A stretch of DNA of 27,563 nt from a virus: positions 1 through 27,563 of IMG/VR virus record IMGVR_UViG_3300028361_000101, one strand, 5' to 3'. Made by a program: the position numbers and the translations under genes. How positions within the stretch are numbered: position 1 is the first letter of the stretch; every line of letters starts with the position of its first letter. The notes beneath the pieces were generated by a model, which saw only the letters and a program-made list of their open reading frames with translations, was not told the DNA's origin and ran no database searches. Positions 1-15,840 of this stretch are shown here, piece by piece.

Positions 1-131
1 GGGTTGTCGTGGCGCAGGCAGGTCTTGTAGCAGTTGAGCAGATATTCATCGCCCAACGTATCAATCCAAATCGGCCCGTCGTGGCTGAACCATTGCCCGC
101 GGCCCACGCGTTCTTGTGGGTCGTCGGTCAT
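1..131 (-). CDS. Partial phage protein, N-terminal 43 residues
   Basis: This is the N-terminal 43 codons of a leftward gene cut by the left edge. It begins MTDDPQERVG and continues with an acidic and aromatic stretch (QWFSHDGPIWIDTLGDEYLL). The ATG overlaps the stop codon of the DUF6378-like gene in an ATGA arrangement, so translation is probably coupled and the gene belongs to the same leftward operon. The start was chosen for that overlap and for the in-frame run to the window edge. The pattern of tryptophan, DG, then a short helix ending in LLN resembles small phage proteins of unknown function. I do not recognise it with confidence. Confidence 0.6.
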   Translation of the reverse strand, partial: MTDDPQERVGRGQWFSHDGPIWIDTLGDEYLLNCYKTCLRHDN

Positions 132-598
132 TCCCGCTCCTCGATCTCGCGGCACTCCCCTGCGATCGCGCCGTAGGTTGCGTTGTCTGTATAATTGTCT
201 GCATGGTAGCCGCCGTAGAACGTGCGGGTCATCTTCACGAGCTGCATCATGTGCGCCACGTCTTCGGCGTCCAGATACAGGTGCGCATACTCACCGTGTT
301 TGGCGCCGATATAGGCCCGCCACATGCAGGCACAGGCCGTCAGGTTGTTATACGGCGGGCCGTAAGTTTTGTCTCGACTGCCTGCCGTCAGCTCGATGCC
401 GCGCTGCAACAGCTTCACGCGCTCGGGCTGGCCGCTTTCCAACACCTCACGTGGTGTTCCGATCCGGTCAATTATGCTCTGGGCATAATCTGTGCTGACA
501 TTGCACATCTCGGCCAGCACCGCGGCACTGGGCAGCGCGCTGTTGTCGATCCACAGCTGCACCAGTCGTTTCCATACCAGTTCTTCATTCGCGTCCAT
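128..598 (-). CDS. DUF6378-like phage protein
   Basis: This encodes about 156 residues. The C-terminal two thirds carry a pattern I associate with the phage family DUF6378: a GSRDKTYGPPYNN segment, then an aromatic helix, a D-AEDVAHMMQLVKMTR helix and a final DNYTDNATYGAIAGE segment. The first 60 residues look like a small helical, possibly helix-turn-helix, domain. Biochemical function is unknown. The ATG at 596-598 was preferred over upstream starts because AAGGAGAGAACGC lies directly before it. It overlaps the end of the VRR-NUC gene by 14 bases, indicating coupled translation. A copy of the 17-bp palindrome (472-488) lies inside the coding sequence, where it encodes a Tyr-Ala-Gln-Ser-Ile run. 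Confidence 0.75.
   Translation of the reverse strand: MDANEELVWKRLVQLWIDNSALPSAAVLAEMCNVSTDYAQSIIDRIGTPREVLESGQPERVKLLQRGIELTAGSRDKTYGPPYNNLTACACMWRAYIGAKHGEYAHLYLDAEDVAHMMQLVKMTRTFYGGYHADNYTDNATYGAIAGECREIEERE
472..488. repeat. 17-bp palindrome copy 1 (intragenic)
   Basis: TTATGCTCTGGGCATAA has perfect 6-bp arms around a 5-bp centre. It lies inside the DUF6378-like gene, about 110 bp downstream of its start codon. Confidence 0.8.
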
Positions 599-1960: not shown

Positions 1961-1977
1961 TTATGCGCCGCGCATAA
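1961..1977. repeat. 17-bp palindrome copy 3
   Basis: TTATGCGCCGCGCATAA has perfect 6-bp arms. It lies between the stop of the 202-residue gene and the Shine-Dalgarno of the 247-residue gene. The centre GCCGCG (1967-1972) is complementary to CGCGGC (1981-1986), which gives an alternative 6-bp hairpin with an 8-nt loop in the leftward mRNA. Confidence 0.85.
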
Positions 1978-2586
1978 TTACGCGGCTTCGTCTTGCTCTT
2001 CTTCGATCTCGTTGTCTTCGAGCGCTTCGATCACGGCCTCATCGCTTGTGAGGTATTCGTGCTCCCGCTCAAGAGAGCTGTAGAGCCAGTCTGCCAAGTC
2101 GGTGAACAGGCAGATCAACGTCTGCTCGATGTGGTCGATGATAGCACCGTCGACCTCGTCTGGGTCCCGCTCGTCGTAATGCCCCCACTCGCCGATCTGC
2201 ATGGTGTTGGAGTGCCAGTAGTGACTGCTGTTGCGCGACACCACGGCGTAGACCGGGCCATAGATGCGGGCCAGCAGGCACAGCTCGTCGGCGATGCGGT
2301 GCAGCTCCTCGTCGTTGCAATACTCGCGTATCTTTGCCGGTGCGAGGTCGCCGGTCGGCGTATACCCCGAGCGCGTGTTCAAACTTAACGCTTGCGCCCT
2401 ATAGCGCCCCGTCCACGACGCGCCGTCGCCCTGTGACCAGAAGCCCGAGAAGCACGGCTCGTTCTTGCCCAGCTCGATACCCATGATCTCGCAGATCTGA
2501 TGGAAGTCGTCGTAGACGCTGTCCCACCAGTCGTGGGTGACGTTGAAGTCGCGGTGGGCGTCGATGAATGATTGTGAATATGGCAT
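1978..2586 (-). CDS. Conserved phage protein with FSGFWSQGDGA motif
   Basis: This is an acidic 202-residue protein. The segment CFSGFWSQGDGASWTG near residues 45-60, followed by a KIREYCNDEELHRIADELCLL helix and a HYWHS motif, resembles a widespread but uncharacterised phage family. The last 30 residues are almost entirely acidic (EEEQDEAA end). The ATG at 2584-2586 follows AAGGAGAAAACAC. A palindrome identical to copy 3 lies 15 bp upstream of the start, and copy 3 begins at its stop codon. The enzymatic role is unknown and no catalytic motif is evident. Confidence 0.8.
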   Translation of the reverse strand: MPYSQSFIDAHRDFNVTHDWWDSVYDDFHQICEIMGIELGKNEPCFSGFWSQGDGASWTGRYRAQALSLNTRSGYTPTGDLAPAKIREYCNDEELHRIADELCLLARIYGPVYAVVSRNSSHYWHSNTMQIGEWGHYDERDPDEVDGAIIDHIEQTLICLFTDLADWLYSSLEREHEYLTSDEAVIEALEDNEIEEEQDEAA

Positions 2587-2601
2587 GTGTTTTCTCCTTG
2601 A

Positions 2602-2618
2602 TTATGCGCCGCGCATAA
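2602..2618. repeat. 17-bp palindrome copy 4
   Basis: TTATGCGCCGCGCATAA is identical to copy 3 and lies 15 bp upstream of the 202-residue gene's start. GCGCCG (2606-2611) can alternatively pair with CGGCGC (2624-2629), which precedes it in the leftward mRNA. Confidence 0.85.
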
Positions 2619-2635
2619 TGCCTCGGCGCGTTACG

Positions 2636-3877
2636 TTAGAACTGACCCGACGACACGTGGACAGTTGTGCCGAAGGGTGGGTTGCAGATTTTGTTGTCGA
2701 CGATGACCCACAGCACAGGGCAGGCCCAGTCGCCCCAGCTGCCGCCCAGATAGCCGTCGGTGAACACGACAGCGCATTGTGCGTTGATGCGCTCGGCGCG
2801 CATGTGGTCAGGCACGCACTCGACCATTGTGCCACCGCCACCGGCAGGCTTGGTGCTCTGGATCATGGTGGCGATCTCGACACCCTCGTAACGCTCGTCG
2901 GCGCAGATCTTGGTGTCCCAATACAACAGGCGGACAGCCTCGGGATGAACGGTATCGGCGATGCCCTGCACCTCGGACAGCATGCGCTGTATCTCCCGCG
3001 CACCGATCGAACCCGACATGTCAGGGGCGATGATGATCTCCCCGATCTGCTCGCTGACGCCGGACGGCATATACATGCCCGCGCTGAGATAGCGACGGTT
3101 GGGCCTGCGCCATGTGGAATAGTCGGACCCTGTGCATGTGGTCTGCACAAACTCACGCAACACCTCGCGCCAGTCTTGCTGTGGCTGCAACAGATCGCCG
3201 AAGTCACGATCGCCACCGGTGCCCAGCTTGCCTGCGGCCATGGCGCCCTGCCGCACCGCCTCGTCGATATCACGGGCCAGCGCCTGCTGCTCCTCGGCAG
3301 TCATCTCCTTGGCCTCGTCCCACATGTGGTCGTCGAAGCCCGGGCCCGCGTCACCCGCGCCGTCACCGTCGCCGTCGCCCGCGTCCCCTTGGCCCTTGCC
3401 GCCACCTTGCTCCTGCTCCTGCTGCAAGTCGCGGAACACACGCGCGCTGTCCCATCCGCAATACTTGACGTCGTAGCACCCCATCTCCAGCGGGCCCGTC
3501 ATGGTGGCAAACTTGTCTGACCTGTTGTCGTCAACGAGTTGTGTGTTGATGACGTAATCACAGGCGATGTTGGCCAGCTTGGCGTCGATGTCATACATCC
3601 AGCGCCACGTCGTCAGGTGGCGATAGAGCTTGTGATACACCTCGTGCAGCATGAGGAAGCGAAGCTCGGCGTCGCGCAGCGAGTCGACGAACGACCTGTT
3701 GTAATACTCGTCCTTGCCGTTGGTCGCAGCGGTCTTGATGCGGGGGTGGTCGGCCTCGACAACCGACCGGTTGCCGATAAGCAGGACGCCGGACAGCGCC
3801 ATGTATTTGCGGTTGGCCATGATGTCGATGGCAGCTTTTTGCAGCCGTTGCTCTGCTGTAAGTCTGACGTGTAACAT
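2636..3877 (-). CDS. VWA-like / putative metallopeptidase protein (DUF2201-type)
   Basis: This is a 413-residue protein with the two-part architecture of the DUF2201 group. The N-terminal domain contains HEVYHK, an HExxH zinc-site motif at residues 78-82. The C-terminal von Willebrand A-like domain has a MIDAS motif DMSGS (D286, S288, S290). Between them is a flexible Gly/Asp/Gln-rich linker near residues 155-180. In the family such proteins pair with MoxR/CobS-type AAA+ ATPases, which remodel metal centres or protein complexes; one is encoded upstream in this operon (5299-6399). Whether the HExxH site is active is not known. The start follows AAAGGAACAACAAC, and palindrome copy 5 lies 16 bp upstream. 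Confidence 0.85.
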   Translation of the reverse strand: MLHVRLTAEQRLQKAAIDIMANRKYMALSGVLLIGNRSVVEADHPRIKTAATNGKDEYYNRSFVDSLRDAELRFLMLHEVYHKLYRHLTTWRWMYDIDAKLANIACDYVINTQLVDDNRSDKFATMTGPLEMGCYDVKYCGWDSARVFRDLQQEQEQGGGKGQGDAGDGDGDGAGDAGPGFDDHMWDEAKEMTAEEQQALARDIDEAVRQGAMAAGKLGTGGDRDFGDLLQPQQDWREVLREFVQTTCTGSDYSTWRRPNRRYLSAGMYMPSGVSEQIGEIIIAPDMSGSIGAREIQRMLSEVQGIADTVHPEAVRLLYWDTKICADERYEGVEIATMIQSTKPAGGGGTMVECVPDHMRAERINAQCAVVFTDGYLGGSWGDWACPVLWVIVDNKICNPPFGTTVHVSSGQF

Positions 3878-3893
3878 GTTGTTGTTCCTTTCT

Positions 3894-3910
3894 TTATGTG
3901 TCGCTCATAA
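3894..3910. repeat. 17-bp palindrome copy 5 (contains a stop codon)
   Basis: TTATGTGTCGCTCATAA has perfect 5-bp arms. Its left end is the TAA stop of the upstream 124-residue gene, whose last codons read IMSDT. GTCGC (3900-3904) can alternatively pair with GCGAC (3912-3916). It lies 16 bp before the VWA gene start. Confidence 0.8.
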
Positions 3911-4268
3911 TGCGACTGTTACGTTTCACATGGCGTGCGTATTCGGCCCGCACATCGTCGGGCCAGAGGTCTTGATGCACGTCGATCAGCTTGGCGCGGA
4001 ACACTTCTTCGCCATCGCGCCGGATGACAAGCTCGTTCATGTTCCATTGGCGACGAAACGTGCTGACACCGATAGCGTGGACGCGCGTTCCTATCTTACC
4101 CTTCAACTCCTTGGGTGGCACGCCCAGCAGGTCGGCGATGCGACAGGACCGCTTGAGCTCGCCATAAAGCTTGATCTGCTTGATTAGCAGGTCGCGCATC
4201 TCGTCGATGTTTTCGTAGAACTCGGGTGGCACGGGGGTGCCACCCCCCTTCGGGGGGATATCTTGCAT
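3894..4268 (-). CDS. Hypothetical phage protein (124 aa) in the ATPase/VWA cluster
   Basis: This is a 124-residue protein lying between the VWA-like gene and the 297-residue gene. A central segment (RSCRIADLLGVPPKELKGKI) looks helix-turn-helix-like, and the C-terminal half is basic, so nucleic-acid binding is possible. That is inference from composition only. I chose the ATG at 4266-4268, behind AAGGAGAGAG, over an upstream frame extension that would read through palindrome copy 6. Codons 4-15 contain two adjacent GC-rich hairpins (4225-4257). The stop codon lies inside palindrome copy 5. Function unknown. Confidence 0.75.
   Translation of the reverse strand: MQDIPPKGGGTPVPPEFYENIDEMRDLLIKQIKLYGELKRSCRIADLLGVPPKELKGKIGTRVHAIGVSTFRRQWNMNELVIRRDGEEVFRAKLIDVHQDLWPDDVRAEYARHVKRNSRIMSDT
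4225..4257 (-). promoter_or_regulatory. Overlapping GC-rich hairpins in the first codons
   Basis: Two inverted repeats overlap here. One is GGTGGCAC-GGGG-GTGCCACC (4225-4244), an 8-bp stem. The other is CCCCCC-TTC-GGGGGG (4243-4257), a 6-bp stem. In the leftward mRNA they begin about 9 nt after the start codon of the 124-residue gene, so they may affect translation initiation. No U-tract follows, so it is not a terminator. Confidence 0.5.
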
Positions 4269-4285
4269 GTCTCTCTCCTTTGTTG

Positions 4286-4302
4286 TTATGCCCGAGGCAT
4301 AA
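4286..4302. repeat. 17-bp palindrome copy 6
   Basis: TTATGCCCGAGGCATAA has perfect 6-bp arms and lies 17 bp before the 124-residue gene's start. It shows the clearest alternative pairing: GCCCGAGG (4290-4297) is fully complementary to CCTCGGGC (4306-4313), an 8-bp stem with an 8-nt loop. Confidence 0.9.
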
Positions 4303-4321
4303 TCACCTCGGGCGGTTGGTC

Positions 4322-5215
4322 TTACCACTCCAGCGATGGCAGGGCAGCGATGGCCGCCTCCATGTCGCGCTTGAGGTCGGCGCGGAACCCCTCGTTCTTG
4401 ATGAGGTCTTCACGGCACACGCCGGACAGGGCCGATGTCAGTTTGCGCTGTGCCAGCTGCAAGGCAGGGTCGTTGGTGAAGTTGCAGTGCTCCAGCATGT
4501 CAGCGAGGTGCTGCACGTGCTCGATGGTGCTGTCGTAGATCTTACCCTTCTTGCCGTCGACGTCCACGTCCAGCTGCTTGACGAACCGCTCAAGCTCGGT
4601 GTGCAGGCGCTCCCACAGGTCGCCCATGGCCCGCTCCATCTGCATCTGGTAGAAGGTCTCATACTGTGCACGCAACGCCTCCTGTGCATTGTTCTCGATC
4701 TCGACACGCCAGTCGCCCGCGTCAGGCACGGGGATGTAGGACATGCGGAACGCGAACTTGCTGCGGATGCTGTCGGTTGTGGGATACTCGTCACGGTGAA
4801 ACAGATTGCCCAGCTTGATGTGCATCTGTGCGACCTGCCAGTCGTATGCGTCGAGGAACGTGTCCACGAGCCGGTCGAACTCGGCCTGCATCTGCGTCAT
4901 CTGCTTGTGGTAGTCGAAGTATTTGGCCGTCGGCAGCAGGCGCAGGCCGCTGTCTGACCATGGCACGGTCATGTTGTAGTGAAGCGTGCGTGTGTTGGCC
5001 GCGAACTTCTGGATTGCCACCAGTTCCGCGCATCCGTCCATGAGGTTCTTGTTGAAGTTGCCCGCAGACTTGGACGCATAGTTCTGGCGCAACACGTCGG
5101 CTGTGGCGCTGCGGTCCTTCTTGCGCGCGGTCCATGTGCTGATGCCCAGCTCGACGAGCATAGACGAGGATGAGATTGTCGGTGCCGACACGGTCGGTGT
5201 GTTCATATAATTCAT
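4322..5215 (-). CDS. Conserved phage protein of the MoxR/VWA cluster (DUF3150-like?)
   Basis: This is a 297-residue, largely helical protein encoded between the AAA+ ATPase and the VWA-like gene. It starts with a low-complexity Ser/Thr segment. A conserved-looking region follows: W-ARKKDRSAT, N-NKNLMDG, then the TVPWSDSGLRLLP motif near residues 85-97. Long helices with frequent Gln, Glu and Arg follow. Such proteins accompany MoxR/VWA pairs in phage genomes, and the gene resembles DUF3150, though I am not sure of that name. By position it is probably the third component of the ATPase-VWA complex. The ATG follows GGAGAACAACA. It has no recognisable catalytic motif. Confidence 0.75.
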   Translation of the reverse strand: MNYMNTPTVSAPTISSSSMLVELGISTWTARKKDRSATADVLRQNYASKSAGNFNKNLMDGCAELVAIQKFAANTRTLHYNMTVPWSDSGLRLLPTAKYFDYHKQMTQMQAEFDRLVDTFLDAYDWQVAQMHIKLGNLFHRDEYPTTDSIRSKFAFRMSYIPVPDAGDWRVEIENNAQEALRAQYETFYQMQMERAMGDLWERLHTELERFVKQLDVDVDGKKGKIYDSTIEHVQHLADMLEHCNFTNDPALQLAQRKLTSALSGVCREDLIKNEGFRADLKRDMEAAIAALPSLEW

Positions 5216-5235
5216 TGTTGTTCTCCGTTGTCATA

Positions 5236-5250
5236 GGCCACGTTGTGGCC
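5236..5250. repeat. Additional intergenic palindrome GGCCAC-GTT-GTGGCC
   Basis: This is a perfect 6-bp inverted repeat with a 3-bp centre. It lies between palindrome copy 7 and the Shine-Dalgarno of the 297-residue gene. It does not belong to the TTATG family and is the only such element seen in this operon. Confidence 0.6.
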
Positions 5251-5254
5251 GAGG

Positions 5255-5271
5255 TTATGCCCGAGGCATAA
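5255..5271. repeat. 17-bp palindrome copy 7
   Basis: TTATGCCCGAGGCATAA is identical to copy 6 and lies in the 83-bp gap between the MoxR-like gene and the 297-residue gene. CGAGGC (5262-5267) can alternatively pair with GCCTCG (5274-5279). Confidence 0.85.
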
Positions 5272-5298
5272 TCGCCTCGAGGCTTCGTTAGACCGTCG

Positions 5299-6399
5299 TC
5301 AGACGTCTGCTGCGAAAAGGTGCGAGTTCTTGCGCGCCCATGCGGTGAAGGCAGCGTGGGTCATCATCATGCCCTGCTTGCTGTAGCCCTTGGCGCGCAC
5401 GCCGTTGGCGAACATGCCTGCCGCCTCGGCGGGCAGCCTGTCGAGGTAGGTCATCCACGCGTCGATCCATTCACGCTCGATGATGGACAGCGTGCGATAC
5501 ACGATCATACACACGGCAGCGGCACCGGCTGGTACCTTGGCGTTGAGAGGGTCGCGCTTGATGGACTCGAGGCTCGGCAGATCGTCGGCAAGGCTGACGA
5601 ACGCCATGAGGTCCATGGCCGCCCTGTCCCCCAGCGTGCCGATGAGGCCCGCCGTGATGGTGTGGTCGTCGAGGCCGCCGCGCCGCTTGAGCAGGTTAGA
5701 CGCCTTGTGCAGTGACCGTGGTGTGACGAACGCCGCCCGCTGCGACCGTGGGTGGTAGATATACGGGTTGTCGTCGGGGTTCTGTACGTCCTCGAAGGAC
5801 GCCATGACCTGCGGTGTCTCGCGCACCCAGCCAAGAATGGACGTGTCGAGCTCGTTGTTGATGCCCCAGTCTATCCACGCTGTGCTGGTCGGCTTGGTCA
5901 TACGCACGTTCATGATGCGGTTACGTGCATGTGGTGGCAACAGGTCGCCCACGCCCTCACCCCCGAGGTTGGTGGTGGCGAAGATCAGGCTGTCGCGGTG
6001 TAGCTTGTAGCTGCCGATCTGGCGCTCCTGCATGAGCCGAAGCAGGGCGTTCTTCACGGCGGGGTTGGCCTTGCCATACTCGTCGATCATGAGGATGATG
6101 GGCTTGTCGATGTGCGCACCCAACTCCTCGTTGGTGGCATAGCTAACGAACGGCAGGGATGCACCGTCTGCGTCGGTATCGGCGATGCGAGGCAGTGTGA
6201 TGTCGCCAAGATCTTTTGTGGTGCAGTCGAAGTAGCACGCAGTGTGCTTGGGGAAACGCTCGTCGAGAATGTGTAGGATGCTGCTCTTGCCGCTACCGAT
6301 ATCTCCCGATACCAGCACGGTTGTCTCGTGCGCCACGGTGGCGATCAGTTCGGCACACTGCGTTATGCTCAAGGCATAAAGGTTGGTTGCTTGTGACAT
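5299..6399 (-). CDS. MoxR/CobS-like AAA+ ATPase
   Basis: This is a 366-residue AAA+ ATPase. The Walker A motif is GDIGSGKSS (residues 32-40), Walker B is IILMIDEYG (101-109, D106 and E107), sensor 1 lies in FATTNLG (N144), and a candidate arginine-finger segment is PPHARNR (155-161). The rest is a helical C-terminal lid domain. MoxR and CobS ATPases act with VWA-domain partners to remodel protein complexes or insert metal. A VWA-like gene lies two genes downstream, so a phage ATPase-VWA machine is likely. Its substrate is unknown. The ATG follows AAGGAGAACCAACCA. Palindrome copy 8 lies inside codons 7-13 rather than upstream. Confidence 0.9.
   Translation of the reverse strand: MSQATNLYALSITQCAELIATVAHETTVLVSGDIGSGKSSILHILDERFPKHTACYFDCTTKDLGDITLPRIADTDADGASLPFVSYATNEELGAHIDKPIILMIDEYGKANPAVKNALLRLMQERQIGSYKLHRDSLIFATTNLGGEGVGDLLPPHARNRIMNVRMTKPTSTAWIDWGINNELDTSILGWVRETPQVMASFEDVQNPDDNPYIYHPRSQRAAFVTPRSLHKASNLLKRRGGLDDHTITAGLIGTLGDRAAMDLMAFVSLADDLPSLESIKRDPLNAKVPAGAAAVCMIVYRTLSIIEREWIDAWMTYLDRLPAEAAGMFANGVRAKGYSKQGMMMTHAAFTAWARKNSHLFAADV
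6363..6379. repeat. 17-bp palindrome copy 8 (intragenic)
   Basis: TTATGCTCAAGGCATAA has perfect 6-bp arms and lies inside the MoxR-like gene, 20 bp after its start. It encodes a Tyr-Ala-Leu-Ser-Ile run. Confidence 0.8.
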
Positions 6400-6771: not shown

Positions 6772-7038
6772 TCATCCGTTGCCTTTACCGTTGCCGTCGC
6801 CGTTGCCGTTGCCGTAGCCGCGACCGTTGCCGTAGCCGTTACCTTTACCGTTGTTGTAGCCGTCGCCGTGGCCGTTGCCTTTACCGTTGCCGTAGCCGTC
6901 GCCGTGGCCGTTGCCGTGGCCGTCGCCGTTGCCGTTGCCGTGGCCGTAGCCGTTGCCGTGGCCGTTGCCGCTGCCGTCGCCGTGGCCGTTGCCGTGGCCG
7001 TTGTTGTTGCCGCGACCGCGACCTCTGCCGTTGTTCAT
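6772..7038 (-). CDS. Gly-Asn-rich hexanucleotide-repeat protein (88 aa)
   Basis: This ORF is almost entirely alternating Gly-X, where X is mostly Asn, His, Asp or Tyr, with some Lys and Arg and one Ser. The DNA is a degenerate tandem array of the hexamer GCCGTN (plus strand), so X codons are NAC with all four bases at the first position. The ATG lies one base after the stop codon of the 88-residue gene upstream and has no clear Shine-Dalgarno, so any translation is probably coupled. The open frame is fully maintained and follows the operon direction, but repeats can stay open by chance. It could encode a disordered or phase-separating peptide, or be a non-coding repeat expansion. Confidence 0.5.
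   Translation of the reverse strand: MNNGRGRGRGNNNGHGNGHGDGSGNGHGNGYGHGNGNGDGHGNGHGDGYGNGKGNGHGDGYNNGKGNGYGNGRGYGNGNGDGNGKGNG
6775..7029. repeat. Degenerate GCCGTN hexanucleotide tandem array
   Basis: About 255 bp consist of hexamers GCCGTT, GCCGTC, GCCGTG, GCCGTA, GCCTTT and a few GACCGC-type variants. Longer blocks (encoding GYGNGKGNG or GHGDGY) recur, indicating unequal-crossover or slippage history. Variation is concentrated at the sixth base of the unit. Confidence 0.85.
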
Positions 7039-7048
7039 GTTATGCTTC
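7030..7048. repeat. 19-bp direct repeat, right copy
   Basis: This is identical to 6749-6767. It spans the start codon of the Gly-Asn-rich ORF and part of the palindrome copy 9 sequence. Confidence 0.8.
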
Positions 7049-7056
7049 AGCCATAA
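7040..7056. repeat. 17-bp palindrome copy 9 (contains a stop codon)
   Basis: TTATGCTTCAGCCATAA has 5-bp outer arms and a mismatch at the sixth position. Its left end is the TAA stop of the DUF6926-like gene, whose last codons read IMAEA. Confidence 0.65.
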
Positions 7057-7306
7057 TTGGCACTGCCAGCATCACGTCCACGCAGTTGCAGGCCAGCACG
7101 CCGTATTCGGCAGCGTCGTGGTAACGTGCAAAGTATGGGTCGTCGCTGACCTCTGCGATGTGGTACTCCCCGAACTCCCGTGTCGTGTCGTCAAGCCACC
7201 GCGAGAACGCTCCGGTCTCGGTGTCGTCCATGCCGGATGTGTCGCCGTAAGCCACAGCAGTCAGCCAGTGTGTTGGCAGCGCCAATGTGAGAAGTTCGAA
7301 TTGCAT
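7040..7306 (-). CDS. DUF6926-like small phage protein
   Basis: This is an 88-residue protein. The order of motifs resembles a small uncharacterised phage family I recall as DUF6926: an N-terminal LPTHWLTAVAYGDTSGMDD, a central helix, then DPYFARYHDA and a final hydrophobic strand. The naming is moderate-confidence recall. The ATG follows AAGGAGACAACAC. Palindrome copy 10 lies 28 bp upstream, and copy 9 forms its 3' end. Function unknown. Confidence 0.7.
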   Translation of the reverse strand: MQFELLTLALPTHWLTAVAYGDTSGMDDTETGAFSRWLDDTTREFGEYHIAEVSDDPYFARYHDAAEYGVLACNCVDVMLAVPIMAEA

Positions 7307-7334: not shown

Positions 7335-7351
7335 TTATGCGTTAGGCATAA
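7335..7351. repeat. 17-bp palindrome copy 10 (contains a stop codon)
   Basis: TTATGCGTTAGGCATAA has perfect 6-bp arms. Its left end is the TAA stop of the 119-residue gene (last codons IMPNA). An extra half-site TTATGC lies at 7322-7327. A second palindrome, GGCATAATGCC, overlaps its right arm. Confidence 0.8.
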
Positions 7352-7694
7352 TGCCGTAGTATGCAGCGCGATCGGCGTCGACGTGCAGCACGTCGACATA
7401 GAAGGTGTCATACTTGCCGCGCCGGACACGCAGGACGGCAACGCCGTCGGTCTTGGTCAGGTAGTCCACGGCGTCGTCGGGGTATGCGTAGACGTTGGTG
7501 CCCAAGCGCCGCACCAGCAGGTAGAAGCGCCCTTCTTCTTCGAGGGCGACAGCCTGTGCCGCGTCGTGCAGCAGGTCGGTGAAGTAGGCTTCGTCCGCCA
7601 TGAACGGCAGGGCCTTGCGTGAGATACTGCCGAAGGCAGACCGGAAAGCGTTGTTGGTGTCGCTGCACAGCAGCTTGTTGGTGATCTGTGTCAT
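7335..7694 (-). CDS. Hypothetical phage protein (119 aa), first gene of the leftward operon
   Basis: This is a 119-residue protein with an acidic C-terminal half containing two strand-like segments (GRFYLLVRRLGTNVYAY and GVAVLRVRRGKYDTFYVDVL). I do not recognise the family. The ATG follows AAGGAGACTATC and is the promoter-proximal start of the leftward operon, about 425 bp downstream of the promoter at 8125-8153. Palindrome copy 11 lies 21 bp upstream and copy 10 provides its stop codon. Coding is supported by the strong ribosome binding site, frame length and operon position. Confidence 0.75.
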   Translation of the reverse strand: MTQITNKLLCSDTNNAFRSAFGSISRKALPFMADEAYFTDLLHDAAQAVALEEEGRFYLLVRRLGTNVYAYPDDAVDYLTKTDGVAVLRVRRGKYDTFYVDVLHVDADRAAYYGIMPNA

Positions 7695-7715: not shown

Positions 7716-7732
7716 TTATGCCCGAGGCATAA
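7716..7732. repeat. 17-bp palindrome copy 11
   Basis: TTATGCCCGAGGCATAA is identical to copies 6 and 7 and lies 21 bp upstream of the first gene of the leftward operon. Confidence 0.85.
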
Positions 7733-8038: not shown

Positions 8039-8055
8039 TTATGCTTGAGGCATAA
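8039..8055. repeat. 17-bp palindrome copy 12
   Basis: TTATGCTTGAGGCATAA has perfect 6-bp arms and lies about 65 bp downstream of the predicted leftward transcription start. Confidence 0.85.
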
Positions 8056-8124
8056 CAGTCGCTACGTGGGCAGAGAGAGGGCAACAATGTCAAAAAGCGT
8101 GGGCGTGAACCCGATTACTCTACA

Positions 8125-8153
8125 ACTATACGATATAACGTGTTAGATGTCAA
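8125..8153 (-). promoter_or_regulatory. Sigma70-type promoter of the leftward operon
   Basis: Read on the minus strand, a perfect -35 TTGACA (8153-8148) is separated by 17 bp from a -10 TATAGT (8130-8125), which matches five of six consensus bases. Transcription would start near 8118 and run left into the 14-gene operon, with a leader of about 420 nt. Palindrome copies 12 and 13 flank it, which would suit control by a palindrome-binding regulator. Confidence 0.8.
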
Positions 8154-8185
8154 TAGTAGGTTAGAAGTTATTGTTTGAGGTTTGG

Positions 8186-8202
8186 TTATGCTCGACGCAT
8201 AA
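8186..8202. repeat. 17-bp palindrome copy 13
   Basis: TTATGCTCGACGCATAA has perfect 6-bp arms and lies about 33 bp upstream of the -35 element of the leftward promoter. Confidence 0.85.
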
Positions 8203-8270
8203 TATGGGGCTTGGGTTCAATGCTCGAAAAAAGGCCCTGTTTTTACGGCAGATTTTGGACCGGCAAGAAG

Positions 8271-8700
8271 TTCCAAGAAGTTCCAACATCACGGAACATT
8301 ACAGGCCCCTTGAAAACAAAGGATTTTTTCTGAAACAATGTAGTAGTAGTAGTAGTTAAGTTATTGTTTTTTAATAATAATAATAAGGCAGTTGCCAATA
8401 TCTGCTAAGTGCTTGATTTCATGTAATGTTCCAAAATGTCAAGAAATACCCATTTTCAAATGTTATTAGCGATTTATTTTTCCGGTGTGGGTTTGGTGGT
8501 TTATCGGCAGCAGCTGCGATCTGACAGATTTTTCCTGACCCTATAGTTTTTTTCGAGGAACAACTGGAACATTATTAAATATCAACGACTTACGCCGAAA
8601 AAACGGGAACTTCTTGGAAAAAGCTGGAACATTATAATGATTTCAATGAGTTAACTTTTGAAAACTTAGGCGTTACACTTTGGAACATTTGGAACATCTT
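8271..8700. repeat. GGAACATT/GGAACTTCTTGG repeat cluster beside AT-rich DNA
   Basis: GGAACATT-type elements occur at 8293, 8425 (inverted), 8566, 8626, 8682 and, as GGAACATC, at 8691. TTCCAAGAAGTTCC (8271-8284) recurs inverted as GGAACTTCTTGGAA (8606-8619). CTGGAACATTAT repeats 60 bp apart at 8564 and 8624. Blocks resembling TTTCAACGACTTAGCC follow some copies. A (GTA)n run and an (AAT)n run lie at 8340-8390. The layout resembles iterons next to an unwinding element. Confidence 0.6.
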
Positions 8701-8751
8701 TGTGTTTTCAACGACTTAGCCCAAAAATACCAAAAATGACATTCTTGACAG

Positions 8752-8768
8752 TTATGGCTGACACATAA
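8752..8768. repeat. 17-bp palindrome copy 14
   Basis: TTATGGCTGACACATAA has perfect 5-bp outer arms. It forms the first third of the 51-bp direct repeat R1. Confidence 0.7.
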
Positions 8769-8802
8769 CAGGCCGCACGCTGTGGATGGAACTGGTTCGA
8801 AG
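8752..8802. repeat. 51-bp direct repeat R1
   Basis: Palindrome copy 14 is followed by ACAGGCCGCACGCTGTGGAT and a GGAACTGGTTCGAAG tail. The core TGTGGATGG (8781-8789) differs from the reverse DnaA box TGTGGATAA at two positions. Confidence 0.8.
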
Positions 8803-8895
8803 AATTTCTGAAAACGAGCTATACTGATTTTCGAGCATTGATGTCTTGCGCGTATAGCATCGTCAGAAGCGTGAAGTGTTAAGTATTGCGCCAAG

Positions 8896-8912
8896 TTATG
8901 TCTCACACATAA
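8896..8912. repeat. 17-bp palindrome copy 15
   Basis: TTATGTCTCACACATAA has perfect 6-bp arms and is the head of direct repeat R2. Confidence 0.8.
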
Positions 8913-8946
8913 CAGGCCGCACGCTGTGGATGGAACTGGTTCGAAG
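8896..8946. repeat. 51-bp direct repeat R2
   Basis: After the palindrome centre it is identical to R1. The DnaA-like core TGTGGATGG lies at 8925-8933. It is 144 bp from R1. Confidence 0.8.
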
Positions 8947-9055
8947 GGGGTTGACAAAACTGAAAATCTTGGTAAGCTCCTGAGCGTAGCTTTGCAGCAA
9001 GGCAGCATAAGCAAGCGCTTGGAGCTTAGTTTTCCAACGCAGAAAAATCCCAGAA

Positions 9056-9072
9056 TTATGTCTCACACATAA
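9056..9072. repeat. 17-bp palindrome copy 16
   Basis: TTATGTCTCACACATAA is identical to copy 15 and heads direct repeat R3. Confidence 0.8.
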
Positions 9073-9101
9073 CAGGCCGCACGCTGTGGATGGAACTGGT
9101 T
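9056..9101. repeat. Direct repeat R3
   Basis: This copy matches R2 to within the last few bases, with the DnaA-like core at 9085-9093, and starts 160 bp from the start of R2. Confidence 0.8.
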
Positions 9102-9128
9102 TGACAGGTCGGACCGAAAGCGCCGGAC

Positions 9129-9169
9129 GCCGCACGCTGTGGATGATGCGCCGGAACTGGTGCGACAGC
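9129..9169. repeat. Partial direct repeat R4 without palindrome
   Basis: GCCGCACGCTGTGGATGA, then a 9-base insertion, then GGAACTGGTGCGACAG. It keeps the repeat core but lacks the palindrome head. TGTGGATGA (9138-9146) differs from the reverse DnaA box at one position. Confidence 0.65.
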
Positions 9170-9185
9170 GCCAAACGGCAGACAC

Positions 9186-9215
9186 AAAAAAGGGCGCCAC
9201 CCGAAGGTGACGCCC
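9186..9215 (-). terminator. Rho-independent terminator of the 204-residue gene
   Basis: On the minus strand a 10-bp stem (GGGCGTCACC / GGTGGCGCCC with one G-U pair) is capped by a TTCG tetraloop and followed by six Ts. It begins 7 bp after the stop codon of the 9223-9837 gene and should end that transcript before the control region. Confidence 0.9.
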
Positions 9216-9222
9216 GATTGTA

Positions 9223-9837
9223 TTACTTCACCAGATCAAGACAGCGCTGGAAAGCCGCCAGCAATTCCTTGTGATCCGCTTTCAAGGTCGGCGCTTCAAC
9301 ATCGCGATCTTTCGTGACCGCCTTGTGCAGCTTGCCGATTTCTTCGGTCACGCGCATTGCAAGGTCCCGCGCCGCGCCTTGCCCCGCTTTGGCCGCGCCT
9401 TCCGCCGCATCGCCAGCCGCCGCATCGCCAGCCGCCGCATCGCCAGCCGCCGCATCGCCAGCCGCCATGCCGAGCCATTCACCATAGGCCGACCGGAACC
9501 CCGCGACCTTAGAAGAAAGATCACGCGACCACGCCTCTTTCGTCTTGGACGCGGCAACACGCGATCCGGTGAGTCGATCGAGGACCTTGCCCTTGATCTC
9601 AACCTTGCCCGCCGCCGTGTCGAACGTGGCGGCGAACGCCGCGCCCTGCCATTGGGTCAGATAGCCGCACTGGAATTCGGCAAGATCATCGCCGCCCCGA
9701 GAGATAGACGCAACCGTCACACCCACACTGTCCAGCTTCACGAATAACTTGAACCGCGCGCCCTCATTTTTGGCGTCCAGCGATGCAGCATCCCTAGCGA
9801 AAGCAAACACGGGGGAATTCGTTTGTACGTCAGTCAT
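9223..9837 (-). CDS. Hypothetical phage protein with AAGDA tandem repeats
   Basis: This is a 204-residue protein of unknown function, transcribed as a single-gene unit with its own terminator. The N-terminal 90 residues look beta-rich (FKLFVKLDSVGVTVASIS, EFQCGYLTQW). A linker near residues 125-145 consists of four 15-bp repeats encoding Ala-Gly-Asp-Ala-Ala units. The C-terminal 60 residues are helical and charged. The ATG follows AAAGGAACATATC. Its isolation from the main leftward operon, and its place next to the early/late boundary, would suit an early regulator or host-takeover protein. No DNA-binding or catalytic motif is visible to prove that. Confidence 0.75.
   Translation of the reverse strand: MTDVQTNSPVFAFARDAASLDAKNEGARFKLFVKLDSVGVTVASISRGGDDLAEFQCGYLTQWQGAAFAATFDTAAGKVEIKGKVLDRLTGSRVAASKTKEAWSRDLSSKVAGFRSAYGEWLGMAAGDAAAGDAAAGDAAAGDAAEGAAKAGQGAARDLAMRVTEEIGKLHKAVTKDRDVEAPTLKADHKELLAAFQRCLDLVK
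9403..9462. repeat. Four exact 15-bp tandem repeats
   Basis: CGCCGCATCGCCAGC is repeated four times in frame inside the 204-residue gene, encoding an Ala/Gly/Asp linker. Identical units suggest recent slippage and probable copy-number variation. Confidence 0.9.
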
Positions 9838-9949
9838 GATATGTTCCTTTCGAGAACGTTACAATCGGCAGGGCCAATCCCTTTCGATGACTAAGGTATA
9901 ACACGTTTGACGTGGCTTGTCTGGACAGCGCCGCCGTTTCATGCCGCGA

Positions 9950-9966
9950 TTATGTCTAAGGCATAA
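9950..9966. repeat. 17-bp palindrome copy 17
   Basis: TTATGTCTAAGGCATAA has perfect 5-bp arms. It is the rightmost copy seen, 112 bp upstream of the 204-residue gene. Confidence 0.75.
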
Positions 9967-10195: not shown

Positions 10196-10762
10196 ATGGC
10201 ACTGCACCTTGATGTAAATTCCGGCGTTCCTGTGCCCGCCAAAGACGACCTCGCGGGCCAAAAGGACCTCATCCGCAACGCAAAGGCCGCTGCAAACGCT
10301 GCGCGCCTGCTGGCGGAGCACGGTCTGGACCTATCGCCGACCCCCCATGACAAGAAAAACGCCGCGGGCCTCGCTTCGGCCTATGCAAAAGACCCCACGG
10401 GCACGTCATATGCGGCCACTCCGGCCCGGCTCGGGGTCATGCCCCCTGCTGCAGTCCTGCTAACAGCCGAGATTCTAAGCCAATTCGGTCACGAAATCGT
10501 GAAAGACGCCGTTCAGGTGCGTCATTTGGTGATGAACAAGCTTGTGCAGGAGACGGAAAACCCAGATCCACGCATCCGCATCCGTGCCTTGGAGCTGTTG
10601 GGCAAGATCACCGACGTGGGCCTGTTCACCGATCGCAGTGAGGTGACAGTGACACACCAGACCGCAGATGACCTGCGGGCCCGCCTGCGCGAGAAGCTGA
10701 CCACGTTGAAGAACGTGACGCCCCCGGATGATATCATCGACGCTGAGATCAGCGATGCTTGA
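10196..10762 (+). CDS. terS: Terminase small subunit
   Basis: This is a 188-residue protein directly upstream of, and overlapping, the terminase large subunit. The C-terminal half has a VQVRHLVMNKLVQET helix, then NPDPRIRIRALELLGKITDV and a DDLRARLREKL helix, a pattern typical of phage small terminases in which helical segments recognise DNA and oligomerise. Residues 1-80 are less conserved and Ala-rich. Its role is to bind the packaging site and regulate the large-subunit motor. The ATG lacks a recognisable Shine-Dalgarno and lies close to the -10-like sequences, so the message may be nearly leaderless. It is the first gene of the late operon. Confidence 0.75.
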   Translation: MALHLDVNSGVPVPAKDDLAGQKDLIRNAKAAANAARLLAEHGLDLSPTPHDKKNAAGLASAYAKDPTGTSYAATPARLGVMPPAAVLLTAEILSQFGHEIVKDAVQVRHLVMNKLVQETENPDPRIRIRALELLGKITDVGLFTDRSEVTVTHQTADDLRARLREKLTTLKNVTPPDDIIDAEISDA

Positions 10763-13332: not shown

Positions 13333-15840
13333 ATGGCCGTGACCAAACCAATGACCCCGTTTGACGTTGAAATTGGGGAAAATCCCGAGCTCGAGACGCT
13401 TGATTTCGATATGCCTGACGACGCCAACATCACCAAGATGGCGACCGAGGACGGCGAGATTATCATCGAGTTTGGTGATGATCTGTCGAATGACGAGGAT
13501 GCGGAGGTCGTGGACCTACCGCACGACACCAACTTCGCCGATATCATGGAAGACGGCGAGCTGCAGTCGTTGGCGGCCGATCTGGTGGCGGACTTTATGT
13601 CGGACCGCACGAGCCGCAAGGAGTGGGCCAGCGCCTATATCAAGGGTCTTGACCTGCTGGGGATGAAGATTGAGGACCGCACGATACCGTGGCAGGGTGC
13701 CTCCGGTGTGTTCCACCCAATGCTGGCCGAGTCTGTGGTGCGCTTCCAAGCGCAGGCCATGAGCGAGATGATGCCCGCCGCCGGGCCGGTAAACACCAAG
13801 ACTGTTGGCAAGATGACCCGCGAGAAGTTCGAGCAGTCCGTGCGGGTCAAGAACGAGCTAAACTATCTCATCACCGAGGAGATGGTCGAGTATCGCGACG
13901 AGATGGAGCAGATGACGTTCCGGCTGCCGCTGGCGGGCTCCGCGTTCAAAAAGGTCTACTATGACCCGCTGCTGGAGCGGCCGGTGTCTGTGTTTGTGCC
14001 GGCAGAAGACTTCGTCATCGCCTACGGCGCGTCAAACCTCGAGTCCTGCCCACGCTACACGCACATCATGAAGAAGGACCCTAACGAGGTCCTCAAACTG
14101 CAGGTGTCCGGGTTCTACCGCGACGTGGACTTGCCCGAGGCTGCGGCCGAAAGCAGTGAGATCCAAGAAAAATACGACGAGCTCGAGGGCAACGAGACAT
14201 CTCTGTCTGACGACGACCGGCACACGCTGCTCGAGATGCACGTCGACATTGACCTGCCAGAGCCGTTCGGGGACGAGGATCGCATCGCGCGGCCATACGT
14301 CGTGACGATCGACCTGACGTCAAAAACCATCTTGGCCATCCGCCGGAATTGGTATGAGGACGACGACAAGAAGCGCAAGCGCATGCACTTCGTGCACTAT
14401 TCATACCTGCCGGGCCTTGGGTTCTACGGCACGGGGCTGATCCACCTCATCGGCGGTCTGGCCAAGTCTGCCACGTCAATCATGCGTCAGCTTGTCGACG
14501 CGGGCACGCTGTCAAACTTACCTGCAGGTCTCAAGACGCGCGGCATGCGCATCAAGGGCGACAACGGGCCGCTGACCCCGGGCGAGTTCCGGGACGTCGA
14601 CGTGCCGGCCGGGACCATCCGCGACAACATCTTCCCGCTACCGTTCAAAGAACCGTCGGGTGTGCTCTATCAGCTACTGGGCAACATCGTCGATGAGGGC
14701 CGCCGCATCGGCTCCGTGGCCGACATCCAAGTGGGTGACATGAGCGCGAACGCGCCTGTGGGCACCACGCTGGCGCTGATGGAGCGGTCGATGAAGGTCA
14801 TGTCGGGGGTCCAAGCCCGCATGCACGCCGCGATGCACAAAGAGCTGCGCATCCTTGCCCGGGTGGTGCACGACTTCATGCCCGACGAGTACGCCTACGA
14901 GGTGGAGGGCAGCTTCAGCCGTCTGGTGGACTTCGACGCCAAAGTGGTTGACGTCATCCCTGTCTCCGATCCAAACGCCTCGACAATGGCGCAGCGCATC
15001 GTGCAGTATCAGGCCGCCCTGCAGCTCGCGCAGCAGTCGCCACAGCTCTACGATATGGGCAAACTCCACCGGCAGATGCTCGAGGTGATGGGCATCCAAG
15101 ACGCCGACCAGATCATCAAGCTGTCGGAAGATATCGCGCCGAAAGACCCGGTCAGCGAGAATATGGCGATTTTGCGGCAAGAGCCCGTCAAAGCGTTCCT
15201 CTACCAAGACCACGAGGCCCACCTCGCAGTGCACATGGCAGCTATGCAGGACCCCAAGCTCCAGCAGCTTGTGGGCCAGTCGCCGTTCGCCGCGGCAATC
15301 GGGGCTGCCATGGCCGCGCATATCACCGAGCACGTGGCGTTCCAGTACCGCAAAGATCTGGAGAAGCAGCTGGGCGTGCCCATGCCGCCAGAAGAAGATC
15401 CGCTGCCCGAGGATGTCGAGGTTCAGCTGTCTCAGGCGACAGCCATGGCCGCGCAGAAACTCTTGCAGGGCAATCAGGCCGAGGCCGCGCAGCAGCAGGC
15501 CGAGCAGGAAGCGCAGAACCCGCTGACGCAGATCCAGATGAAAGAGCTGGAGATCAAGGACCGCGCGCAGACGCTCAAAGAAACGATCGCCCAGCACGAG
15601 ATGGCGCTGGAGAAGGCCAAGCTAGAGCTCGACATGGCCAACAAGACGGCCAACATCGAGGTGCAGCGTGAGCGCATCGCAGCCGAAGACGAGCGTGAGG
15701 GCGCCCGGGTCGGCGTCCGTCTGGCCACGCAGATCGCGTCAAACAACAGTGCCGAGACGCGCGAAGCGATGAAGGCCGGTACCGAACTGTCCAAGGAGGC
15801 TGTCAAAGGTCGCATGGGCCGCAACAGCGGGGGTGAGTGA
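13333..15840 (+). CDS. Portal protein
   Basis: This 835-residue protein is in the expected position after the terminase. The segment RTIPWQGASGVFHPMLAES, followed by FQAQAMSEMMPA and KNELNYLITEEM (residues about 115-185), matches large portal proteins of short-tailed marine phages. It forms the dodecameric ring through which DNA enters the head. The first 60 residues are acidic. The last 130 residues are a Gln/Glu/Ala/Lys-rich coiled coil (AQKLLQGNQAEAAQQQAEQE onward), longer than the core fold needs and possibly involved in capsid nucleation or ejection. The ATG follows AGGAGACTCCGAG. The stop overlaps the next gene by one base. Confidence 0.85.
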   Translation: MAVTKPMTPFDVEIGENPELETLDFDMPDDANITKMATEDGEIIIEFGDDLSNDEDAEVVDLPHDTNFADIMEDGELQSLAADLVADFMSDRTSRKEWASAYIKGLDLLGMKIEDRTIPWQGASGVFHPMLAESVVRFQAQAMSEMMPAAGPVNTKTVGKMTREKFEQSVRVKNELNYLITEEMVEYRDEMEQMTFRLPLAGSAFKKVYYDPLLERPVSVFVPAEDFVIAYGASNLESCPRYTHIMKKDPNEVLKLQVSGFYRDVDLPEAAAESSEIQEKYDELEGNETSLSDDDRHTLLEMHVDIDLPEPFGDEDRIARPYVVTIDLTSKTILAIRRNWYEDDDKKRKRMHFVHYSYLPGLGFYGTGLIHLIGGLAKSATSIMRQLVDAGTLSNLPAGLKTRGMRIKGDNGPLTPGEFRDVDVPAGTIRDNIFPLPFKEPSGVLYQLLGNIVDEGRRIGSVADIQVGDMSANAPVGTTLALMERSMKVMSGVQARMHAAMHKELRILARVVHDFMPDEYAYEVEGSFSRLVDFDAKVVDVIPVSDPNASTMAQRIVQYQAALQLAQQSPQLYDMGKLHRQMLEVMGIQDADQIIKLSEDIAPKDPVSENMAILRQEPVKAFLYQDHEAHLAVHMAAMQDPKLQQLVGQSPFAAAIGAAMAAHITEHVAFQYRKDLEKQLGVPMPPEEDPLPEDVEVQLSQATAMAAQKLLQGNQAEAAQQQAEQEAQNPLTQIQMKELEIKDRAQTLKETIAQHEMALEKAKLELDMANKTANIEVQRERIAAEDEREGARVGVRLATQIASNNSAETREAMKAGTELSKEAVKGRMGRNSGGE

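Follow-up and report, generated by a model that had tools for sequence, protein, structure and literature searches.

An operator-like palindrome shares its centre with a covarying mRNA hairpin at gene junctions in a group of uncultured phages

The virus record IMGVR_UViG_3300028361_000101, analysed here as a 27.6-kb viral fragment (27,563 nucleotides, hereafter the window), carries many copies of a 17-bp palindrome, TTATGC-N5-GCATAA (palindrome A, or hairpin A when folded in RNA). At several gene junctions of the leftward early operon, the centre of this palindrome can pair with an arm lying just upstream of it in the mRNA (arm U), giving a second hairpin (hairpin B). Here, we present a comparison of these elements across 80 related IMG/VR loci, which were found via the AAA protein of the operon. 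The comparison provides good support for a reading in two layers with covariation in the second, where the palindrome resembles a protein-binding site in DNA, that is, a putative operator, and hairpin B behaves as an mRNA structure confined to gene junctions, with free sequence and kept pairing. A regulated two-state on/off switch is not supported. Instead, the explanation that we favour, at about an even chance, is an intercistronic mRNA hairpin serving processing, stability or insulation, in which the centre of the operator-like palindrome is reused as the 3' arm. The case is of interest as a DNA site constrained in sequence and an RNA hairpin constrained in structure would occupy the same bases, and the two can be separated by comparative analysis in a large uncultured phage group. 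Further, the search found neither a repressor nor an integrase, yet the identity of the palindrome changes between groups, which hints at an as yet unrecognised regulator.

Hairpin covariation across related phages

In phages with TTATGC- or TTATAC-type palindromes, 29 of the 60 copies next to a Shine-Dalgarno sequence have, immediately upstream in the mRNA, a perfect complement of GC-N5-GC over at least 6 bp, compared with 7.5% when centres are swapped, and not one of the 60 has a downstream complement of at least 6 bp. Away from Shine-Dalgarno sequences such complements are found at 5 of 42 copies, all five of which also lie at gene junctions. When centres were permuted within genomes, the number of copies scoring at least 6, which is 43 out of 90 in the actual data, had a mean of 26.7 and a maximum of 35 in 500 permutations.

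Covariation was computed on a MAFFT alignment of 19 homologous gene junctions, over a helix of nine pairs. In this helix 96.5% of the cells are paired (77.5% after shuffling), 27 cells are changed on both sides (8.7 after shuffling) and the covariation score is 0.532, compared with 0.190 for the shuffled control, which ignores the relatedness of the junctions, and at most 0.107 for the slid control, which retains it. Moreover, in 212 of 218 comparisons the upstream arm is paired better by its own centre than by the centre of a homologous junction. For the VWA junction (A1), the MAFFT alignment was out of register in several rows; its low covariation was left unused and an alignment-free comparison was made instead. 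The initial annotation had proposed that the palindrome centres co-vary with an upstream complement, and the compensatory changes found across related phages bear this out for most of the five copies.

Where homologous junctions follow the AAA, DUF3150 and VWA genes, hairpin B is kept with a changed sequence. Examples of the two paired sequences include GCCCGAGG/CCTCGGGC in the window, GCGCCGCG/CGCGGCGC in L001, GCCCGACG/CGTCGGGC in L047, GCGGGGCGC/GCGCCCCGC in L052 and GCGAGGCGC/GCGCCTCGC in L034. At the junction between the AAA and DUF3150 genes, the hairpin is retained with different sequences in L001, L003, L022, L034, L047, L052, L068 and L090. Close relatives illustrate this at the VWA junction, where L105/L006 (L105 with 96% protein identity) has arm U CACCGAGGC with centre CTCGG, L129 has GTGCCCC with GGGGC, and the window has GCGCCG with GCGGC. 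The U.G pairs within the stem (columns 24/46 and 28/42) fall in the mRNA sense, and in L090 and L083 one arm of palindrome A is broken (CTATGC/GCATAA and GTATGC/GCATAA) while hairpin B is intact with 9-10 bp. As both sides of the hairpin change together, hairpin B is probably real and selected; its stem lies between co-directional genes and has been conserved through compensatory changes, as is expected of an intercistronic hairpin.

The palindrome as a putative DNA site

In the window, TTATGC-N5-GCATAA occurs in 10 exact copies where 0.01 would be expected, and the total reaches about 17 when one or two mismatches are allowed, all of them in the 1-10 kb region. They are found before Shine-Dalgarno sequences, within genes (472, 1122 and 6363) and in non-coding DNA (8039-9966). 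Nearly all of the 80 loci carry a multi-copy palindrome of their own at comparable positions. These palindromes are 17-18 bp dyads, and their arms are identical within a genome and vary between groups, including TTATGC, TTATAC, GTTAGT with N5 or N6, GTTAGG, TCCGAC and GTAGTG. This combination of many copies, constancy within a genome and difference between groups is what operators and stoperators show, and it suggests operator switching on a large scale across L001-L080, in phages without a recognised repressor. In isolates sharing the terL gene (HTVC023P, HTVC027P and DSL-LC04), the regions read held no multi-copy palindrome.

The palindrome is also common away from Shine-Dalgarno sequences, as about half of the copies lie in genes or non-coding DNA (for perfect copies, 175 near a Shine-Dalgarno sequence and 193 elsewhere). 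Sense G.U pairs are not in excess among copies with a single mismatch (6 of 45), and the half-sites vary and mix independently in L014, L048 and L050. Because of these features, together with the constancy within genomes and the switching between groups, the palindrome looks like a site in DNA.

A candidate for the palindrome-binding protein is a product with an N-terminal module of about 45 amino acids resembling a winged helix-turn-helix (EELVWK.LL...VA..CdVs..YAq.iIDRIGTP). It is encoded at 128-598 (-) in the window, with homologues in 16 of 24 relatives, and is fused to varied C-terminal domains, in the window to DUF6378. In several phages of the TTATGC type, the codons of this gene contain a copy of the palindrome. 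Pfam searches of candidate early genes gave only sub-threshold helix-turn-helix matches, such as L047:18177-18554, which is not shared beyond L068.

Complementarities in the window

All five complementarities listed in the initial annotation exist, and all lie on the minus strand. At the junction from the AAA ATPase gene to the DUF3150 gene, palindrome A (TTATGC-CCGAG-GCATAA, 5255-5271) is preceded in the mRNA by arm U at 5274-5283 (the GCCTCGAGGC region), the core of which, GCCTCG at 5274-5279, pairs with CGAGGC at 5262-5267. The copy between the DUF3150 gene and the gene at 3894-4268 has the same centre (4286-4302), with an 8-bp match of 4306-4313 (CCTCGGGC) to 4290-4297 (GCCCGAGG). Between the DUF2201/VWA gene and the gene at 1978-2586, the copy TTATGC-GCCGC-GCATAA (2602-2618) has its arm U at 2620-2629 (GCGCCGAGGC in the mRNA), with 6 bp between CGGCGC (2624-2629) and GCGCCG (2606-2611). 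An imperfect palindrome, TTATGT-GTCGC-TCATAA (3894-3910), provides the stop codon of the gene at 3894-4268, and its 5-nt complement lies within the coding sequence (GCGAC at 3912-3916 with GTCGC at 3900-3904). Finally, the copy TTATGC-GCCGC-GCATAA at 1961-1977, between the genes at 1978-2586 and 1199-1942, matches the last two codons (GCC GCG) of the former gene, with CGCGGC at 1981-1986 pairing with GCCGCG at 1967-1972.

Together, the five matches amount to 31 bp, compared with about 17.4-17.9 expected, a total that was reached in 0 of 3000 trials in both controls; taken jointly, all 17 copies in the window give P of about 0.0007 against random windows. Single copies are weak, except for that at 4286 (P 0.0007-0.005). 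A complement of this kind is missing at 12 of the 17 copies and is thus a trait of certain junctions rather than of the palindrome itself.

That pairing is kept while sequence changes, as the initial annotation had further claimed, holds at homologous junctions for the copies at 5255, 4286 and 2602, where the comparison supports true covariation, and fails for the copy at 1961, where pairing is lost in relatives. There, the upstream segment is the end of the gene at 1978-2586 (GAA GCC GCG TAA), which is conserved coding sequence; relatives have the same or nearly the same codons and a centre of gcgac, gcaac, ccaag or gcccc, and pairing falls to 3-4 bp. For both these reasons the complementarity at this copy is, judging from the relatives, a coincidence. 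The match at 3894 is within chance (P 0.07-0.13), comprises only 5 bp in coding sequence, and is mismatched in the informative relative, L001.

As a separate observation, another hairpin (GGCCACAACGTGGCC) lies at 5230-5250 (-) in the window, after the palindrome at the junction of the AAA and DUF3150 genes, and GTTAGT-type relatives have comparable separate hairpins there.

Mutually exclusive hairpins of unequal stability

The initial annotation had also described the two hairpins as mutually exclusive. This is correct, as the upstream arm pairs with GC-N5-GC and thereby occupies two bases of each palindrome arm, the inner GC, so that hairpin B precludes hairpin A. A pseudoknot containing both stems was considered and rejected on geometry, as a 9-bp stem cannot be bridged by zero-length linkers.

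In silico folding of 19 junction copies favoured hairpin B over A by 2.6-14.7 kcal/mol, with the probability of A ranging from 1e-2 to 1e-10, and the 5' arm of B is also transcribed first. With energies so one-sided there is no balanced pair of states, and hairpin A would be expected in these mRNAs only if the 5' arm were masked. Neither hairpin covers the Shine-Dalgarno sequence. Scrambling arm U shifted the accessibility of that sequence in inconsistent directions (0.56 to 0.63, 0.79 to 0.53, 0.64 to 0.82, 0.82 to 0.65 and 0.67 to 0.48), and likewise the accessibility of the ATG start codon did not change consistently when the upstream arm was broken. In the mRNA sense, hairpin B is followed by ATAACAAC, which has no U-run; a terminator scan returned no terminator-like site in that sense at these junctions, and Rfam returned no leader or riboswitch family at gathering score. 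The attenuator or translational switch suggested by the initial annotation is thus not upheld: there is neither a terminator hairpin with a U-run, nor a pair of comparable states or an upstream sensor, nor a state that hides the Shine-Dalgarno sequence or the start codon.

Possible function and alternative explanations

According to the explanation that we favour, TTATGC-N5-GCATAA would be a dispersed, double-stranded, operator-like site for a phage-specific protein, with a 5-bp centre that is free to vary. The GC-rich hairpin B would form in the leftward mRNA at the junctions from stop codon to Shine-Dalgarno sequence that flank the AAA, DUF3150 and DUF2201/VWA genes, with its 5' arm starting some 7-20 nt past the stop codon in most phages and the palindrome core GC-N5-GC as its 3' arm, and its structure would be retained while its sequence turns over. 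Once the 3' arm was transcribed, hairpin B would form, block hairpin A in the mRNA and leave AUAACAAC..AGGAG single-stranded. It may then shield the upstream message at its 3' end and keep adjacent genes apart in processing or translation; cleavage would fall in the AU-rich stretch that follows the hairpin. Binding of the palindrome by a protein, formation of the hairpin in vivo and a role in processing or stability are thus presumed here, and among possible roles the last is the most likely one, by analogy with the Rhodobacter puf operon.

Several points weigh against this explanation. The role in stability or processing is drawn from analogy. Relatives of the GTTAGT class mostly lack an overlapping hairpin (about 3 of 116 copies have at least 6 bp, among the few clear cases being GGCGGC-GTTAGT-GCCGCC-ACTAAC in L010), and junctions of other groups can have a separate GC hairpin, lying wholly upstream of the palindrome in L002 and wholly downstream in L064, L065, L066 and L074, or none. 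Hairpin B and palindrome A are therefore separable, and as B is not universal its function cannot be essential. Further, a search of 20 contigs gave no match to HTH_3 (CI-type repressors) above cut-off, and no integrase was found in the same contigs, so that there is no evidence of a classical lysogeny repressor.

A further reading, rather unlikely in our view, would have the overlap itself be functional. The bases shared by an mRNA hairpin and the binding site of a lineage-specific protein would then make up a compact operator-plus-RNA element, in which the exclusion of one hairpin by the other is exploited, perhaps by a ribosome that has reached the upstream stop codon or through recognition of hairpin A in RNA by the protein, and which is retuned at each junction by compensatory changes. 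A ribosome-gated element of two states is unlikely. In it, a ribosome at the upstream stop codon would cover the 5' arm and A would replace B, altering translation or decay of the next gene. The sharing of G/C bases that makes A and B exclusive is in line with such gating, as is the position of the 5' arm about 7-9 nt past the stop codon in L001, L022, L034 and L047, within reach of a terminating ribosome. However, this distance is about 18 nt in the window (5274-5283) and about 60 nt in L052, B has an advantage of about 3-15 kcal/mol and is made first, accessibility of the Shine-Dalgarno sequence follows no consistent direction by state, L083 and L090 lose A yet retain B, and many junctions have A without B.

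It is improbable that the palindrome is an operator in RNA, with a phage protein binding hairpin A near the Shine-Dalgarno sequence to repress translation and arm U as an anti-repressor that melts A at selected genes. Many copies do lie 2-9 nt before a Shine-Dalgarno sequence, with perfectly complementary arms, but equally many perfect copies lie away from one, including in genes and non-coding DNA, and neither the G.U content of imperfect copies nor the independently varying half-sites fit a site constrained as RNA.

We give little credence to a mutational by-product, in which template switching between nearby inverted repeats copies the centre into adjacent DNA and creates matching changes without selection. 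The centres are GC-rich, the repeats are multi-copy and some centres seem block-swapped between copies (window 2602 and L105), but the process would be expected at all copies and on both sides, whereas no match of at least 6 bp occurs downstream of the Shine-Dalgarno copies and the upstream matches at other copies sit at gene junctions. Hairpin B is also quite unlikely to be an intrinsic terminator of sense or antisense transcripts, as the scan does report stems at 4289-4314, 1967-1986 and 3900-3916 on the plus (antisense) strand with moderately T-rich tails (e.g. GTTGGTCTTA), but these tails hold only scattered T and derive from the stop-codon spacer TAACAAC, the mRNA-sense tail lacks a U-run, and termination would cut the operon.

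Comparison with known systems

In the puf operon of Rhodobacter, a stem-loop lies between co-transcribed genes, and its structure matters rather than its sequence. This operon is a documented case of segmental mRNA stability, with cleavage by RNase E at AU-rich sites (PMC6238624, which cites Klug et al. 1987). The elements described here likewise place a stem-loop between co-transcribed genes, with AU-rich sequence nearby. Unlike in puf, many short hairpins occur in one operon of these phages, each with an operator-like palindrome as its 3' arm, and they are known from sequence.

The stoperators of Cluster A mycobacteriophages are many dispersed copies of one motif with group-specific variants (PMC6550527). 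These sites are asymmetric, 13 bp long and for the most part in one orientation, and the repressor of the phages is known. The palindromes here are similar in being a dispersed multi-copy motif that varies by phage group and is presumably bound by a sequence-specific phage protein, but they differ in being 17-18 bp dyads, not asymmetric 13-bp sites in one orientation, and in that neither a repressor nor an integrase accompanies them in the contigs searched.

Attenuators of the trp type have two hairpins that are unable to coexist, and the hairpins described here are also mutually exclusive. In contrast to such attenuators, these have no U-run terminator and no leader peptide, lie between genes rather than before the first one and have one-sided energies. 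REP elements are repeated intergenic palindromes able to form hairpins in mRNA, and they resemble our elements in both respects. Here, however, the repeated part is a DNA-like palindrome and the covarying hairpin is copy-specific, and the elements are found in phages, adjoining Shine-Dalgarno sequences; the palindromes are moreover not limited to sequence outside genes, given the copies at 472, 1122 and 6363. Literature searches for elements of this kind returned nothing specific.

Genomic context

The leftward early operon of the window includes the genes for the AAA ATPase (5299-6399), the DUF3150 protein (4322-5215) and the DUF2201/VWA protein (2636-3877). A repeat-rich non-coding region comes after the operon, followed by the packaging and structural genes, which run rightward and include terL (at 10728) and the portal gene (at 13333). 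Megablast of the early region of the window against annotated phages gave no match.

Palindrome copies without a complement, all on the minus strand, lie upstream of the gene at 7335-7694 (7716-7732), at the end of this gene (7335-7351) and, with one mismatch, at the end of the gene at 7040-7306 (7040-7056). Within coding sequence, also on the minus strand, copies are found in the AAA ATPase gene (6363-6379), in the DUF6378 gene at 128-598 (472-488) and, with one mismatch, in the gene at 874-1206 (1122-1138). Non-coding copies lie before the early operon (8039-8055), at 8186-8202 and between the divergent leftward and rightward gene blocks (9950-9966).

Tandem repeats of 12 nt at 6772-7038 (-) encode a low-complexity protein rich in Gly and Asn, and similar repeats occur at several junctions of L003, L007, L022, L047 and L082. 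In the non-coding DNA, three direct repeats of 53 nt (8750-8802, 8894-8946 and 9054-9106) each begin with a diverged palindrome copy (8752, 8896 and 9056, together spanning 8752-9072). They adjoin an AT-rich stretch with repeated GGAACAT motifs, and the region resembles an origin or control region.

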